A DNA stretch of 11,838 nt, taken from positions 1 to 11,838 of the forward strand of contig JAFGPY010000174.1 in assembly GCA_016935955.1 (NCBI GenBank), in the 5' to 3' direction. Origin of the DNA: Planctomycetota bacterium. Its GTDB lineage: Bacteria > Planctomycetota > Phycisphaerae > FEN-1346 > JAACEH01. Positions 2,060-10,122 of the stretch are shown piece after piece (within the stretch, counting starts at the first letter, position 1; each line of letters opens with the position of its first letter). The notes below the pieces were generated by a model. The model was not told where the DNA came from. It was given only the letters and a program-made list of their open reading frames with translations, and did no database searches. A program made the position numbers and the translations under genes.

Positions 2060-3987
2060 CAGCGATCCATCTGCGGGTCGCGCGGGGGGCCGCCGGGTTG
2101 CGGGGTCACCTTCGGGAAGGGTTCGCGGGTTTCCTTCATCGGTTCCTCGACGTACTCCAGCAGTACGCCGATGAAGGCGTCGACGCGCTCGCGGTAGCTG
2201 ACGTCGAGGGCGGCGCGCAGCACTTGGCGCATGATCACACGTTCGGCCATGTTGCCCTCGGTCGGCTGGGCGGTGCCGCGCCAGCGCGGGTTCATCTGCG
2301 ACTGCGTCCAGAACGCCACCCATTCGCTCGTGCCGTTGCCCCACTGGGCGATCTTGTCGAGCGTCGTCAGTTCCTTGTCGTAGTTGGGCAGCTTCAGCAT
2401 CCGCTCCACGTACTTGCTCGTGCGCACCTTGATGCAGTGGAACTGGAACCGCCGGTCGGCCCACGTGGTGACGAACTTCTCGATGTCGCCGAGGCTCTTC
2501 TCCTGCGGCGGCGCGTCGCTCATAATGACAACTACGCGCTTGGCTGCCGGGCTGGCCGACCATTTCTGGTGCTTGACGATCTCGACCAAGGCATCGAGCA
2601 CGGCCTCGGGAATGTCGCCGCCGCCCTTGGGGCCTTCGGGGCCCAGGCGCTTCTGCAGGTCCACGGCGTTGGTCGTCAGCGGGATGGTCCGCGTGACGTA
2701 CGCGTCGCCGTGATCGCGATAGAGCGTGACGCCGATGCGCGGCTCGCGGCTGATGAGTTCGAAGGCCCGCATCATCTTCACCACGTCGCGTTTGATCCAA
2801 TCCAGCGGCGCGCCCATCGAGCCCGTGGCGTCCAGCGCCAGGCCGACGTCCAACTGGTCCAGGTGAAACCGCCGCAGCTCCAGGTCGCGCCGCCACTTGG
2901 GGTCGGCCGTGTCGGCGATCTTCTCGCCCGGAGGCATGATCGTGCCCCCGCCGACGTAGGGCATCGCGTCGCGCGGGTCGATCTCCGTGAACGACTGTCG
3001 CTTGTACCAGTCCATCCATCGCTGGTACGTCGTGCCCCACATGACCTTCGAGCTTTCCATTCGCAACGTGCCGTGGTACTCGACCTCTTCGGGGGCGATC
3101 GTCCGCAGGACCAGTTCGGCGCGGTAGGCGTCGTCGAGGGTCTTCATCTGCTCGATGAACCAGAGGATCATGTCGCCGCTCTGCCAGCGGACGGTCATGT
3201 CGCCGAGGGCCCACAGCGTCCGGATGTCGCCGGGATTGATGCTGTTGGTGGCCATGAAGATCTGCTTGGCCCACTTCTTGTTCTCGGGAGTGGGGCCGCC
3301 TTCCTCGATCAGGCCCACCAGCCCGAGCCGCATGTCGCCGCGAAGCTGGCCCTTCTCGGCGAACTCGAAACCGCGCATCTTCCACTGCGCCCGCTGCTGC
3401 GGATTCAGGCGACCCTGACGGGCGTGCAGCGCTTCCCATGCGTAGAGCCGCACGATCGCCGCTCGGTCGTCTTCCATGACTTCGATCAGCTTGTTGGTGG
3501 TCCGCGGGTCGTCCACCATGGCCAAGCCGGTCACGGCCATGCTCCGGGCGATCCAGTCGTCGCTGGCCAGATGCTCGTCGTAGACCTGCAGGTAGTGCTT
3601 GAGGAACTTCTCGATCGTCTCGGGCTGCTGCGAGAAGGTCAGCGGCTTCTGCTCTTTCTTCTCCGGCTGGCCCTCGCCGCCGTCGGGCGTCTGGGGAGTC
3701 TGCGACGGGTCGGCTTCCGGCGATTCGGCGGGTTCCGGCCCGAACCCCGGCTGCGGACCGGAGTCGTCCGGCTCGTCGGGTTCCTGCGGCTTGGGCGAAG
3801 GAGGCTTCGGAGCGGGCGTCTCCTTCTGCATCGCCTCCGACAGATTGTCCAGGGCCGTTTGGACCTCCTGCGACGCGGCGGCCCGGTTTCGCCGCGACGG
3901 CGAACTCGCCTCGTCGGCCGCCACGGCCCATGCCGCCGACACCAGCAACGCCACGGCGCAGCCTACCGCTGCAACTCCATCCCTCAT
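2059..3987 (-). CDS. Secreted protein with HEAT-like region and von Willebrand factor A domain
   Basis: The 642-residue product starts with a signal peptide: a hydrophobic core at about 5-22 with probable cleavage after AVA at 21-23. A long Pro/Glu/Asp-rich linker (about 57-115) follows. A helical region (about 120-300) resembles HEAT-type repeats; its segment 141-190 has the usual alternation of Ala/Leu-rich helices. A vWA domain spans about 378-570. Its metal-binding MIDAS motif reads DATGS (Asp386, Thr388, Ser390), a conservative form of DxSxS. Supporting landmarks are YRDHGD (423-428), GGGDIPEA (455-462) and SDAPP (490-494). Start: ATG at 3987 has GGGGAG a few bases upstream and the signal peptide begins immediately. 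vWA domains bind protein ligands through a divalent metal, so a cell-surface or periplasmic binding role is likely. Partners and exact role are unknown. Confidence 0.88.
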   Translation of the reverse strand: MRDGVAAVGCAVALLVSAAWAVAADEASSPSRRNRAAASQEVQTALDNLSEAMQKETPAPKPPSPKPQEPDEPDDSGPQPGFGPEPAESPEADPSQTPQTPDGGEGQPEKKEQKPLTFSQQPETIEKFLKHYLQVYDEHLASDDWIARSMAVTGLAMVDDPRTTNKLIEVMEDDRAAIVRLYAWEALHARQGRLNPQQRAQWKMRGFEFAEKGQLRGDMRLGLVGLIEEGGPTPENKKWAKQIFMATNSINPGDIRTLWALGDMTVRWQSGDMILWFIEQMKTLDDAYRAELVLRTIAPEEVEYHGTLRMESSKVMWGTTYQRWMDWYKRQSFTEIDPRDAMPYVGGGTIMPPGEKIADTADPKWRRDLELRRFHLDQLDVGLALDATGSMGAPLDWIKRDVVKMMRAFELISREPRIGVTLYRDHGDAYVTRTIPLTTNAVDLQKRLGPEGPKGGGDIPEAVLDALVEIVKHQKWSASPAAKRVVVIMSDAPPQEKSLGDIEKFVTTWADRRFQFHCIKVRTSKYVERMLKLPNYDKELTTLDKIAQWGNGTSEWVAFWTQSQMNPRWRGTAQPTEGNMAERVIMRQVLRAALDVSYRERVDAFIGVLLEYVEEPMKETREPFPKVTPQPGGPPRDPQMDR

Positions 3988-6372: not shown

Positions 6373-6714
6373 CTAGCTCGATGCCCGGGCGGCCAGATCG
6401 GCCGCATCCGGACCCAGGTCGTCCCGCCAGACCTCGATCGCGTTGAGGATCTTCTGCCGCTGGGCGCCGATCGTGCTTCGATACGCAATGAGCGACGGAA
6501 TGAAAACCACCAGGAAGACCGGGATGATGCTCATGATGCCCAGGACGATTACCATCGTCTTGCCGCTGGTTCGGGCGGCCTCGAAATCGGCCATGGCGTT
6601 GAGGATGTAGAGCCGCTTGGCCTTGGCGATCTCCTCGCGCGGCAGGTTGACCAGCGAGGCGGCAAAGGCCGACAGCGCAGCCGGATCCAGCGAAACCATC
6701 GTGTTGCCCGCCAT
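6373..6714 (-). CDS. Small single-pass membrane protein of unknown function
   Basis: The product is 113 residues. An in-frame ATG at 6765 would add 17 residues, but the ATG at 6714 has AAGGAG at 6726-6721 spaced 6 bases, while the longer form has none; I choose 6714. The protein has a mildly amphipathic N-terminal half (residues 1-48), one strongly hydrophobic segment at about 53-77 and a charged C-terminal tail with a helix (about 84-98) ending in Ala/Asp-rich residues. There is no cleavable signal peptide and no known motif. It is first in a minus-strand transcript with the TPR gene 71 bases downstream, so the two may interact at the membrane; that link is inferred from order only. I do not recognise the family. 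Confidence 0.7.
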   Translation of the reverse strand: MAGNTMVSLDPAALSAFAASLVNLPREEIAKAKRLYILNAMADFEAARTSGKTMVIVLGIMSIIPVFLVVFIPSLIAYRSTIGAQRQKILNAIEVWRDDLGPDAADLAARASS

Positions 6715-6720
6715 CGCGTT

Positions 6721-6726
6721 CTCCTT
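6721..6726 (-). promoter_or_regulatory. Ribosome binding site for the small membrane protein
   Basis: AAGGAG in minus sense, 6 bases before the ATG at 6714. It decides against the longer in-frame start at 6765. Confidence 0.65.
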
Positions 6727-6777
6727 GTTCGCCTGCCGCCGAGTCGCACCCCAGTGCCCTGCCAACCGCCGCCTTTG

Positions 6778-6806
6778 AGTCTAGCAATCGGCCGCCACAC
6801 TGTCAA
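6778..6806 (-). promoter_or_regulatory. Sigma70-type promoter for the small membrane protein/TPR unit
   Basis: In minus sense the -35 box is a perfect TTGACA (6806-6801) and the -10 box is TAGACT (6783-6778), separated by exactly 17 bases. Transcription would start near 6771, leaving a leader of about 56 bases. It lies back to back with the promoter of the ABC permease. Confidence 0.6.
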
Positions 6807-6913: not shown

Positions 6914-7780
6914 GTGCGCAGCATCGCAGCCATTTCAGTCAACACCTTCCGCGAGGTCGTGCGCCAGCCGATCTTCATCCTCGTGCTGGCCCTGGCCGCC
7001 GCCGTGCTGGTGCTGATGATGGTCCTGCCGCTGTTCGGCTTCGCCGACGAGATCGTCCTCTTCAAGGACCTGGCCCTGCACACCTCGGCCCTGGCGGTGG
7101 TCTTCCTGGTGGCCCTGACGGCGGCAAGCTCCGTAGCCGAAGAGCTGGAGTCCAAGACGGCCCTGGCCCTGCTGGCCAAGCCGGTCGGCCGCTGGCAGTT
7201 GCTGGTCGGCAAGTTCGCCGGCATCGTGCTGGCCCTGGTCGTGGCCACGGCCGTCCTGGCGGTGCTGCTCTTCCTGACCACCTACGTGAAGGTCTACAAC
7301 GGCGCCCTGCCCAGCGAACGGCACGGCGCCTTCTCGATGAGCCAGAGCGCCCCGGTGCTGGCCTTCCAGGCCAAGATGTGGAACCATGCCGTGAGCACCA
7401 TGCCGGCCTGCGTGATGATTCTCTACCGCGGGGCGATTCTTGCTGCCGTGGCCGTGGTCCTCAGCGCCAGCTTCAGCCGCGTCCTGGCCGTCATCGTCAC
7501 TTTCGGCCTCTACCTGGTCGGCCACCTGACGGAGTTCCTGACCGACGCCGTGCGGCACTCGGCGGCTGCCGTCCGCGAGACGGTCACCCCGGCGGCGCAC
7601 CTGCTGCCGTTCCTGCAGAACTTCGACATCGTCAACCAGGTGGCCAGCACCATGGCCGACCAGCCGTCGTTCGCCGGTGTCTGGCCGTACACGGCGTGGG
7701 TCGGCCTCTACACGCTCGGTTACGTCACGTTCATCCTGCTGATCGGCATCTACCTGTTCAATCGCCGCGAGATTGACTGA
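6914..7780 (+). CDS. ABC-2 family transporter permease subunit
   Basis: The 288-residue product is an integral membrane protein with about six hydrophobic segments (roughly 19-40, 56-74, 100-124, 164-185, 188-207 and 258-282). Between the second and third is the segment EELESKTALALLAKPVGRWQ (76-95), then LLVGKF. This acidic, then Lys-Pro-x-x-Arg, then Gly-Lys pattern is characteristic of ABC-2 type permeases, where the loop helix contacts the ATPase. The N-terminal Asn-Thr-Phe-Arg-Glu also fits the family. Length is usual for an ABC-2 half transporter, which acts as a dimer with a separate ATP-binding protein. No ATPase or accessory gene lies in the window, so the partner must be encoded elsewhere and the substrate cannot be inferred. 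Start GTG 6914 was chosen from its ribosome site; GTG 6884 would add ten residues. Confidence 0.85.
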   Translation: MRSIAAISVNTFREVVRQPIFILVLALAAAVLVLMMVLPLFGFADEIVLFKDLALHTSALAVVFLVALTAASSVAEELESKTALALLAKPVGRWQLLVGKFAGIVLALVVATAVLAVLLFLTTYVKVYNGALPSERHGAFSMSQSAPVLAFQAKMWNHAVSTMPACVMILYRGAILAAVAVVLSASFSRVLAVIVTFGLYLVGHLTEFLTDAVRHSAAAVRETVTPAAHLLPFLQNFDIVNQVASTMADQPSFAGVWPYTAWVGLYTLGYVTFILLIGIYLFNRREID

Positions 7781-7859
7781 GTTCGCCGCGCAGGCATCCA
7801 CGACGAACGAAGACCTGCTCGCGACGACCCCACTGCGCAACTTTCCCGCTCGCACGTCC

Positions 7860-7892
7860 CCGGATTGACGCCGGATTGACGCCGGATCTGCG
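7860..7892 (+). repeat. 11-bp tandem repeat just upstream of a -35 box
   Basis: CCGGATTGACG occurs twice perfectly (7860-7870, 7871-7881), then a third, diverged copy CCGGATCTGCG (7882-7892). The array ends 7 bases before the -35 box at 7900. An 11-base period puts the copies on nearly the same face of the helix, as expected for activator sites, but a simple slippage duplication is also possible. Confidence 0.6.
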
Positions 7893-7899
7893 TTTCGTC

Positions 7900-7928
7900 T
7901 TGACAGGGCGGCCGGTGGGGAGTATCCT
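7900..7928 (+). promoter_or_regulatory. Sigma70-type promoter of the deoxyhypusine-synthase-like/hldD unit
   Basis: A perfect TTGACA (7900-7905), a 17-base spacer and TATCCT (7923-7928) form a good promoter. The start would be near 7935, immediately before the palindrome at 7938. The leader to the ATG at 8009 is about 73 bases. Confidence 0.6.
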
Positions 7929-7937
7929 CCGAGGTTC

Positions 7938-7964
7938 GTATTACGATAATCATAATCGTAATAC
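7938..7964. promoter_or_regulatory. 27-bp near-perfect palindromic operator at the transcription start
   Basis: The element has a 13-1-13 layout: left arm GTATTACGATAAT (7938-7950), centre C7951, right arm ATAATCGTAATAC (7952-7964). Twelve of 13 positions per arm pair, and the outer ten are perfect. It is strongly AT-rich in GC-rich surroundings and lies exactly where RNA polymerase would begin transcription, the usual place for a repressor operator. The core at 7945-7957 matches 12 of 13 bases of the right part of the classical Fur box (GATAATCATTATC), so a Fur-family metal regulator is one candidate. No regulator gene is in the window. As RNA it could also form a hairpin at the start of the message. 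Confidence 0.65.
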
Positions 7965-8008
7965 CGCCGGGCGGGCGGGTTCGCCCATCGGGACACCAGG
8001 GAGAGGTC

Positions 8009-9121
8009 ATGCCGCAAGAGACGTCCAGCGCCGACCGGTCGGGGCCGGTCGCATCGGCCGTGCTGACACCGCGAGCCCGGCAGCGCAAGAACGAGTTGTT
8101 GTCCAAGCCCGTGGCTCCGCTGCGGGTGTCCGGGGGACTGACCGTGGCCGACATGGTCGAGGCCATGGGCGGGATGTCGATCCAGGCCCGCAACATCGGC
8201 CGCTGTGCCCGGGTGCTCGACCGCATGATGCGCGACGAGGATCGCCCGACCGTGATGCTGGGCCTGGCCGGTCCGCTGATTGCCGCCGGGCTGCGGGACG
8301 TCATCCGGGCGCTGGTCGCCGGCGGCTACGTGGACGTGGTCGTGTCGACGGGGGCCGTCATCTACCAGGACGTGTACCAGGCCCGCGGCTACCGCCATTA
8401 TCACGGGGAGCCGCACGCCGACGACACGGCCTTGCGCGACCTCTACATCGACCGCATCTACGACACGTACGTCGACGAGGAGAAGTTCTGGGAGACCGAC
8501 GTGTGGTGCGGCCAGGTGGCCGACGATCTGCCGCCGGGCAACTACTCCTCGCGGCAGTACCTGGAGCACCTGGGCTCGAAACTCGACGACGAGGGGTCCA
8601 TCCTGCGGACCTGCCGCGAGGCGGGCGTGCCGGTGTTCTGCCCGGCGCTGAACGACAGCTCGATCGGCATCGGCCTAACGCACCACCGGCATCGCTGCCG
8701 CCAGGAGGGGCGGTCCGGGGTGGCCATCGACTCGATCCGGGACAACTACGAACTGACGCAGATCGTCGTGCAGTCGAAACAGACGGCCGCCATCTACGTG
8801 GCCGGAGGCGTGCCGAAGAACTACATCAACGATTCGGTCGTCATGGGCTACATTTTCGGGCTCGATCGCGGACACGCCTACGCCGTCCAGGTAACCACGG
8901 CCGTCACGGCCGACGGCGGCCTGTCGTCGAGCACCCTGGGCGAGGCCCAGAGCTGGGGCAAGATCCACCGGGAAGCCGACTTCGCCACGGCCTGGGTGGA
9001 ACCGAGCGTGGCCCTGCCGCTGCTGGTCGGGTACCTGGTGGACCGTCACCCGGCGCCGGCCCGGCGTCCGCTCCAGATGCAGTGGCGGGACGATCGTCTG
9101 GAGTCGCTGCGGGTGCGCTGA
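8009..9121 (+). CDS. Deoxyhypusine-synthase-family protein, probably a bacterial polyamine-modifying enzyme
   Basis: The 370-residue product spans the length of the deoxyhypusine synthase (DHS) family (human enzyme 369). Family landmarks are VVSTGAVIYQD (111-121), GYRHYHG (127-133), the IDRIYDTYVDE region (148-157), CPALNDSSIG (211-220), GGVPKNYI (266-273) and EAQSWGKI (312-319). By hand alignment Lys318 corresponds to the catalytic human Lys329 and Trp316 to Trp327. NAD and spermidine are the usual substrates: the enzyme moves an aminobutyl group through an imine on this lysine. Bacteria lack eIF5A, and bacterial homologues are thought to make homospermidine or related polyamines, so eIF5A modification is unlikely here. 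Several human spermidine contacts differ (His288 to Asn271, Asn292 to Asp275, Asp316 to Leu305). Start ATG 8009 follows AGGGAG at 7998-8003. Probable operon with hldD, 38 bases downstream. Confidence 0.85.
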   Translation: MPQETSSADRSGPVASAVLTPRARQRKNELLSKPVAPLRVSGGLTVADMVEAMGGMSIQARNIGRCARVLDRMMRDEDRPTVMLGLAGPLIAAGLRDVIRALVAGGYVDVVVSTGAVIYQDVYQARGYRHYHGEPHADDTALRDLYIDRIYDTYVDEEKFWETDVWCGQVADDLPPGNYSSRQYLEHLGSKLDDEGSILRTCREAGVPVFCPALNDSSIGIGLTHHRHRCRQEGRSGVAIDSIRDNYELTQIVVQSKQTAAIYVAGGVPKNYINDSVVMGYIFGLDRGHAYAVQVTTAVTADGGLSSSTLGEAQSWGKIHREADFATAWVEPSVALPLLVGYLVDRHPAPARRPLQMQWRDDRLESLRVR

Positions 9122-9159: not shown

Positions 9160-10122
9160 GTGTACATCGTAACGGGAGGCGCGGGATTCATCGGCAGCAA
9201 CCTGGTTCGCGGCTTGGTCGCGCGCGGGCATCGCGTGCTGGTGGTCGACGACATGGCCAATCGCGACAAGGTGGCGACGAACCTCGGCGGCGTGCCGGTC
9301 GTGGACTGCCTGGACAAAGAGTTCTTCCGCGAGGCGGTGGCCGCGGGCCGCACGTTCGGCTCGGTCGAGGGACTGTTCCACCAGGGCGCCTGCGCCGACA
9401 CGCTCTGCACCGACCGCTGGCGGTTGTGGTGGGACAACTATGAGTACTCGACGCTCATGCTCCGCTGGGCCCTGGTCCAGCGGATTCCGCTGGTGTACGC
9501 TTCCAGCGCCGCCGTTTATGGGGCCGCTACATCGTTCACCGAGGAGCCCGACAACGAGCGGCCGCTGAACTTCTACGGCTGGTCGAAGCTGCTATTCGAC
9601 CGCTACGTGCGGCTGCACGCCCGAGGACCGGGCAGCACGGTGGTCGGGCTGCGATACTTCAACGTCTACGGTCCCGGCGAGGCCCACAAGGGGCGCATGG
9701 CCTCAACGGCCTACCAGGTGTATCGGCAGGTGCGGCGGAGCGGCGTCGCGCGGCTCTTCGAGGGCACCGGCGGCTTCGCCCGCGGCCAGCAGCAGAGGGA
9801 TTTCGTTCACGTCTCGGACGTCGTCGCGGTCAACCTGCACTTCATGCAGTCGGCCCCGCGCCGCGGCATCTACAACGTCGGAACGGGCGCCGCCCGGACC
9901 TTCAACGACCTGGCCCGCGCCGTCACCCGCGAGGTGGGCACGGGGTCCATCGTCTACGTTCCCGTGCCCAAGCCCCTTCGCGACACCTACCAGAGCTTCA
10001 CCGAGGCCGACCTGACCGAGTTGCGGCGGGCGGGCTATGACGGCGACTTCGCGTCGCTGGAAGTCGGCGTCGCGGATGCCGTGGCCCGATGGAACAAGGA
10101 GCCCGCCGACAGTGCCGCCTGA
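9160..10122 (+). CDS. hldD: ADP-L-glycero-D-manno-heptose 6-epimerase
   Basis: The 320-residue product is an extended short-chain dehydrogenase close to E. coli HldD (310 residues) along its whole length. It inverts C6 of ADP-D-glycero-manno-heptose using bound NADP, giving the heptose donor for the lipopolysaccharide inner core. Visible motifs: the Rossmann fingerprint TGGAGFIG (5-12), FHQGACADT (73-81, E. coli has FHEGACSST), YASSAAVYG (113-121), YGWSK (139-143), RYFNVYGPGEAHKG (165-178) and FTEADLTELRRAGYD (280-294). Tyr139 and Lys177 match the two catalytic residues of E. coli (Tyr140, Lys178). The GTG at 9160 puts the fingerprint at the very N-terminus, as in the family. It lies 38 bases after the DHS-like gene, without a visible promoter of its own, so it is probably read from the operator-controlled promoter. 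Other heptose genes are not in the window. Confidence 0.92.
   Translation: MYIVTGGAGFIGSNLVRGLVARGHRVLVVDDMANRDKVATNLGGVPVVDCLDKEFFREAVAAGRTFGSVEGLFHQGACADTLCTDRWRLWWDNYEYSTLMLRWALVQRIPLVYASSAAVYGAATSFTEEPDNERPLNFYGWSKLLFDRYVRLHARGPGSTVVGLRYFNVYGPGEAHKGRMASTAYQVYRQVRRSGVARLFEGTGGFARGQQQRDFVHVSDVVAVNLHFMQSAPRRGIYNVGTGAARTFNDLARAVTREVGTGSIVYVPVPKPLRDTYQSFTEADLTELRRAGYDGDFASLEVGVADAVARWNKEPADSAA

Follow-up and report, generated by a model that had tools for sequence, protein, structure and literature searches.

NikR is a ribbon-helix-helix nickel regulator whose N-terminal strand contacts DNA. According to passages of PMC7055735, Ni-NikR represses nickel import in E. coli, where the nikABCDE operator is GTATGA-N16-TCATAC. 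In passages of PMC545781, delta-proteobacterial NikR sites span 27-28 bp and consist of an inverted repeat (GTGTTAC-[N13/14]-GTAACAC); half-sites in other or opposite order are also reported there, as is the left heptamer GTaTTAC at one D. desulfuricans site. In the excerpt of PMC2667541 that concerns transporters, the row for three planctomycetes is empty. Among the titles and abstract openings listed by literature searches, with subscription journals mostly uncovered, there was no account of NikR with polyamines, of deoxyhypusine synthase (DHS) with nickel, of planctomycete NikR operators or of NikR with GTATTAC.

The window (the whole stretch of DNA analysed, 11,838 nucleotides) contains a 27-bp palindrome, GTATTACGATAATCATAATCGTAATAC, at 7938-7964, upstream of a gene for a DHS-like protein. 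Judged from comparison of sequences, this palindrome is very probably a NikR operator whose half-site is specific to the lineage, placed before a target not found described. The locus was compared with L001, a locus of a Phycisphaerae MAG (JAAYDY010000056.1) that holds the closest DHS relative found (84% protein identity over residues 1-368; 80 of 160 relatives were kept); the window thus probably stems from the same part of the Planctomycetota. The features of the window locus are:

7900-7905, + strand: -35 hexamer TTGACA, from a promoter scan; identical hexamer and 17-nt spacing in L001.
7923-7928, + strand: -10 hexamer TATCCT, from a promoter scan; identical hexamer in L001.
7938-7946, + strand: GTATTACGA, left half of the putative NikR operator; 9/9 in L001 and the top-scoring half-site of a matrix built on 20 other sites.
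7947-7955, no strand: central 9 bases, a Fur-like, unconserved core; 4/9 in L001 and variable at other sites.
7956-7964, - strand: right half-site, TCGTAATAC on the + strand and GTATTACGA on the - strand; 9/9 in L001, supported by the matrix.
8009-9121, + strand: DHS-like gene encoding 370 aa, first in a proposed operon under this control; PF01916, E 9.2e-86.
9160-10122, + strand: hldD-type ADP-heptose epimerase gene with GTG start, proposed second gene; TIGR02197, 347.1 bits, cut-off 274.6.

A repeat search recovered the 27-bp, 13-1-13 palindrome that the original prediction had placed after TTGACA-17-TATCCT: arms of 13 nt flank a single base, and 12/13 pairs (92%) are complementary, leaving one mismatched pair. 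It lies just behind TATCCT, as had been claimed, at a distance of 9 nt rather than the 10 or so then given (6 nt in L001). The transcription start, predicted from the promoter only, is near 7935, and 44 nt separate the palindrome from the ATG of the DHS-like ORF (8009). Allowing up to 3 mismatches, a 23-nt pattern modelled on the palindrome matched once in the window and in 0/200 shuffles; since the pattern was derived from the site itself, this result speaks for rarity and does not test whether the site is palindromic. The window-only repeat and shuffle results are too weak by themselves, and conservation in L001 is stronger evidence than the rarity of the pattern in the window. Elsewhere in the window, a second good promoter-like site (6778-6806, - strand; TTGACA-17-TAGACT, with TG before the -10) precedes an ORF of 130 aa (6373-6765) without Pfam match.

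Read as GTATTAC-N13-GTAATAC, the 27-bp site has the geometry of published NikR sites, a pair of heptamers separated by 13 or 14 bases (passages of PMC545781), and GTATTAC is 1/7 off the published half-site GTGTTAC and 1/6 off GTATGA. Upstream of the DHS gene of L001, TTGACA-17-TATCCT is followed by GTATTACGATCATGGGATTCGTAATAC. All outer bases of the palindrome are identical in the two sequences (9/9 and 9/9; 18/18), compared with 4/9 of the central bases and 36/120 of the flank when aligned without gaps in that register; with gaps allowed, identity rises, chiefly near the promoter and 3' of the palindrome. Because the outer bases are kept and the centre is not, the conserved unit is GTATTACGA-N9-TCGTAATAC, of which the Fur-like core is the free part. 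A matrix of this unit was built from 20 of 29 sites in the class of L001 and contains neither the window nor L001; the sites left out are those of G001 (the genome of L001), G002, G016, G033, G169, G192 and G194 and both sites of G281. It gave the window its maximum score, 39.2, and L001 37.7. The bases after the heptamer are G in 34/40 and A in 36/40 cases.

With up to 2 mismatches, the site occurred in 26/298 genomes of the class (29 sites), and the backwards pattern in 4. Only two genomes of the family of L001, G001 and G002, were in the comparison; each has one exact site at this limit, and both encode NikR. NikR_C was found in 113/298 class genomes. NikR was encoded by 25/26 genomes with the site versus 88/272 without it at this limit (Fisher p 8.5e-11, only a guide because the genomes are related), and by 0/4 of the control genomes with backwards-pattern matches; G033 is the one site genome without NikR. 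When the spacer was allowed to vary between 0 and 25, 12 exact pairs of half-sites were counted in the 298 genomes (nine N9, two N10 and one N2), versus 0 for the backwards control. In a phylum sample, up to 1 mismatch allowed, 8 sites were present in 7/392 genomes, one of them the G001 site. When 32 NikR loci were scanned with the matrix, scores were high in three, L084 (27.0, a direct repeat), L125 (26.2) and L132 (24.2), so that many nikR genes have no nearby site. G001 and G002 match PF00374 (NiFe-hydrogenase family) only in part; the matching proteins may instead be complex-I-like relatives, and are thus weak evidence for nickel use in these genomes.

Genes for nickel handling adjoin a number of the sites: within 700 bp downstream of 36 distinct sites, nikR was found at 7, cbiM (Ni/Co uptake) at 10 and either gene at 14. 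Also present there were an exported family (11/36) and a methyltransferase (3/36), and one site each preceded DHS, OprB, DUF4198, FmdE-like, TonB and ExbB genes. In this tally some of the 36 sites count twice and Pfam names come from ten representatives; because the query proteins came mostly from neighbours of the sites, the tally serves as a test only for nikR and cbiM, two families recognised on independent grounds. Five of the 36 sites (G033, G194, G192, G370 and G604) stand before no query family, the one in G370 lying behind nikR. At three further loci (G026 C95, G257 and G269) nikR is on the opposite side and reads towards the site.

Promoter placement was compared at 30 of the 36 sites. 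A TTGAC hexamer lies 8-30 nt before the site in 17/30 loci, where about 1.2 would be expected, and in 14/30 it ends 11-14 nt 5' of the site; at the usual 17-nt spacing, the -10 in such loci would be TACGAT inside the site. The distance from hexamer to site is 32 nt in the window and 29 nt in L001, which puts the site just behind the -10. Both placements, over the -10 and behind it, suit a repressor.

In G002, the exact site precedes a porin gene of the OprB family, and at 3 mismatches G001 has a second site, GTATTAC twice in the same direction, before an OprB homologue. These same-direction half-sites of G001, with 13 bases between, are at L082:1501-1527. Imperfect ones (L084:2123-2149, score 27.0) occur upstream of a G001 NikR gene, and a Thermoguttaceae contig has same-direction half-sites twice (L002:2816-2842 and 3144-3170). 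To judge by such sequences, NikR may accept half-sites in this order.

Two groups of site neighbours were observed that may extend the set of nickel-controlled genes. The exported family behind 11/36 sites has a conserved GK-N-NE-H motif, and ten members align (L097:1558-2673, L100:355-1467, L104:1-1449, L107:1-1431, L108:310-1476, L095:1554-2630, L093:416-1441, L092:1537-2745, L089:434-1429 and L091:1595-2563). Their only Pfam matches were Dockerin_1 (3/10), DUF5689 (3/10; best E 0.0003) and PEP-CTERM (2/10); the family is perhaps a nickel-regulated surface protein. A SAM-dependent methyltransferase gene, directly behind the site in 3/36 loci (L103:1555-2169, L091 on the - strand, and L237), is a candidate member of a nickel regulon.

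Presence of the site also varied with the type of NikR. The N-terminal strand was typed by profile alignment in the 113 NikR genomes, regular expressions being unreliable; two genomes (G052 and G239) in which it was unread were counted as 'other', and one of the two G001 copies was also unread. Strands of the R-x-S/T-x-S type were found in 22 genomes with the site and 15 without, R-x-G-V/I-S in 1 and 56, R-T-A/T-L/M-A/S in 1 and 13, and other or unread strands in 1 and 4, respectively. The site was thus present in 22/37 R-x-S/T-x-S genomes versus 3/76 others (p 8.7e-11, again a guide only among related genomes). The strands of G001 (VRVSLSI) and G002 (VRVSVSI) are both of the R-x-S/T-x-S type. 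Points against a NikR operator are the 15 genomes of this type, and the 88 with NikR in all, that lack the site at up to 2 mismatches, the three site genomes with other NikR types and G033 with none, the five sites before no query family, and a half-site other than the published ones. Both genomes with an exact N10 site (G051:C155:4678-4705 and G141:C415:9421-9448) have an R-T-A-L-A strand; with n = 2, operator spacing may follow regulator type.

Half-sites and promoter hexamers that are kept in the closest relative, and sites that occur with NikR and Ni/Co uptake genes, point to a NikR operator in the window. The narrow spacing, the fixed promoter placement and the co-variation with NikR strand type are further consistent with this assignment. 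The genome of the window would then be expected to encode a NikR of the matching kind. Nickel-loaded NikR would bind the two GTATTACGA half-sites just behind the -10, at the predicted transcription start, and, as long as nickel is sufficient, would block the promoter that drives the DHS-like gene and hldD; upon nickel shortage, both genes would be switched on. Nickel-dependent binding, a repressive effect and a single DHS-hldD transcript are all parts of this proposal.

A NikR-type site by origin could, as a relic or lineage accident, have no working role at DHS-hldD, which we consider unlikely. In its favour, the site is confined to one of the 80 DHS relatives: it was absent from the other 79 when all 80 loci were scanned up to 520 nt before the match, with spacers of 12-14 and half-sites inverted or in the same direction (next best score 10.2, versus 37.7 for L001). 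The expectation that the same palindrome would precede related DHS-like genes was thus borne out in the closest relative found and not in the remainder, and the apparent DHS link of the site rests on two sequences, the window and L001. In addition, DHS genes adjoin HldD-like genes elsewhere without the site. Such a gene is directly 3' of DHS in 12/80 loci (L001, where hldD shows 75% identity, L007, L010, L022, L030, L032, L034, L036, L038, L042, L046 and L066) and precedes DHS within about 0.7 kb in 2/80 (L045 and L051). This seemingly old pairing spans several phyla, mostly without the site; its recurrence makes the gene pair wider than the nickel link. The DHS type of the window was present in 1/8 genomes of the order, and G002 has neither DHS nor hldD. 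Against a relic, the window has the top matrix score and its half-sites are fully kept in L001 despite a diverged flank. Moreover, the gene 5' of the site is an ABC-2 permease in the window and another ORF, which we take to be NadD-like, in L001, so that the site has stayed with DHS while its upstream neighbour differed.

Since all of the evidence is association, another regulator that travels with NikR might bind the site in its place. We regard this as very unlikely: the geometry matches, and the half-site resembles, that of published NikR sites (PMC545781, in the passages on these operators), presence of the site tracks the strand type of NikR, and 7/36 sites are directly upstream of nikR, as in autoregulation.

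The original prediction had proposed a metal-responsive or other dimeric repressor, with Fur or Zur in mind, for DHS-hldD. A metal-responsive regulator is supported by the present results; Fur and Zur are not, and the evidence favours NikR, which that prediction did not name. The features that had suggested the Fur family are literally in the sequence, namely a core that agrees with part of a Fur box at 12/13 bases, and two TCGTAAT half-sites, one on each strand, in everted order. The GATAATnATTATC-type Fur core is, however, unconserved (4/9 in L001) and different at other sites. The Bacillus Zur box is TCGTAAT-N-ATTACGA. In the window, this order is reversed to ATTACGA-N9-TCGTAAT, also relative to Zur sites of the Geobacter type, whose consensus TAAATCGTAATnATTACGATTTA contains the same heptamers (passages of PMC545781). 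A single regular expression detected no Fur-type metal-binding motif in the 36 site loci, and the sites adjoin nikR and cbiM; binding by a Fur-family protein to the AT-rich core or to the TCGTAAT half-sites is highly improbable. The CIRCE element of HrcA, TTAGCACTC-N9-GAGTGCTAA (consensus from passages of PMC545781), has the same 9-N9-9 layout but a half-site other than GTATTACGA, and this reading was rejected too.

That the palindrome acts as an RNA hairpin, stabilising or regulating the message from its 5' end, is scarcely credible: the RNA folded from 7935 does have a stem of 10 bp (minimum free energy -29.7 kcal/mol over 86 nt; z -2.18, with 7/200 shuffles folding equally well) and the site is at the predicted transcript start, but at 14/30 sites the promoter hexamer is so close that the -10 would fall inside the site and most of it would lie outside the message or at its very edge, the 9/10 spacing and the NikR link are left unexplained, and no Rfam match was obtained for 7700-8200 at E up to 1.

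The DHS-like protein belongs to the PF01916 family (288.1 bits, cut-off 27), and all its NCBIfam matches are below their cut-offs (best 314.3 bits versus 500). Its alignment with DHS chains of solved structure (best E 1.3e-28) runs through the segment SWGKI, which presumably holds the catalytic lysine; activity is therefore probable, and the protein may be a homospermidine synthase. Nickel control of DHS-hldD by NikR might reflect a response of the envelope that includes the porin, a polyamine that binds metal, or a substitute for a step that depends on nickel. More speculatively, and as a reading that we hold to be possible rather than probable, NikR of this planctomycete lineage would run an envelope programme for nickel shortage, in which an OprB porin, an ADP-heptose epimerase and a polyamine enzyme of the DHS family are derepressed, and a homospermidine-like polyamine together with an altered heptose-bearing lipopolysaccharide would aid uptake or holding of nickel or replace a nickel-dependent step.

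For Planctomycetota, GTATTACGA-N9-TCGTAATAC is a proposed NikR operator sequence that can be tested. Together with the recognisable strand type of NikR that accompanies it, it offers a route to nickel regulons in uncultured bacteria. The analysis also predicts that nickel controls hldD and an enzyme of the DHS family, and cautions that a palindrome with a partial Fur box match and Zur half-sites most likely belongs to neither regulator. The proposed operator is of a known kind with a variant half-site; DHS-hldD was not found described as a target.

Passages of PMC9992855 describe SpeY, a bacterial homologue of DHS whose product is homospermidine and which is not used for deoxyhypusine; it is of the same protein family as the DHS-like protein of the window. 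The latter reaches no NCBIfam cut-off, and its activity is a prediction; nickel control goes unmentioned in those passages of PMC9992855. The E. coli operator (passages of PMC7055735) shares with the proposed one a palindrome ended by GTAT and about two helix turns between half-sites, and differs in spacing (N16 versus N15), in half-site (GTATGA versus GTATTA) and in target, which in the window is not an importer. The delta-proteobacterial operators of nikMQO, nikK and hydAB, as given in passages of PMC545781, have GTGTTAC where the window has GTATTAC followed by GA, and DHS-hldD is not among the targets named there; they resemble the proposed operator in their 27-28 bp heptamer repeat and in the nickel uptake genes among their targets.
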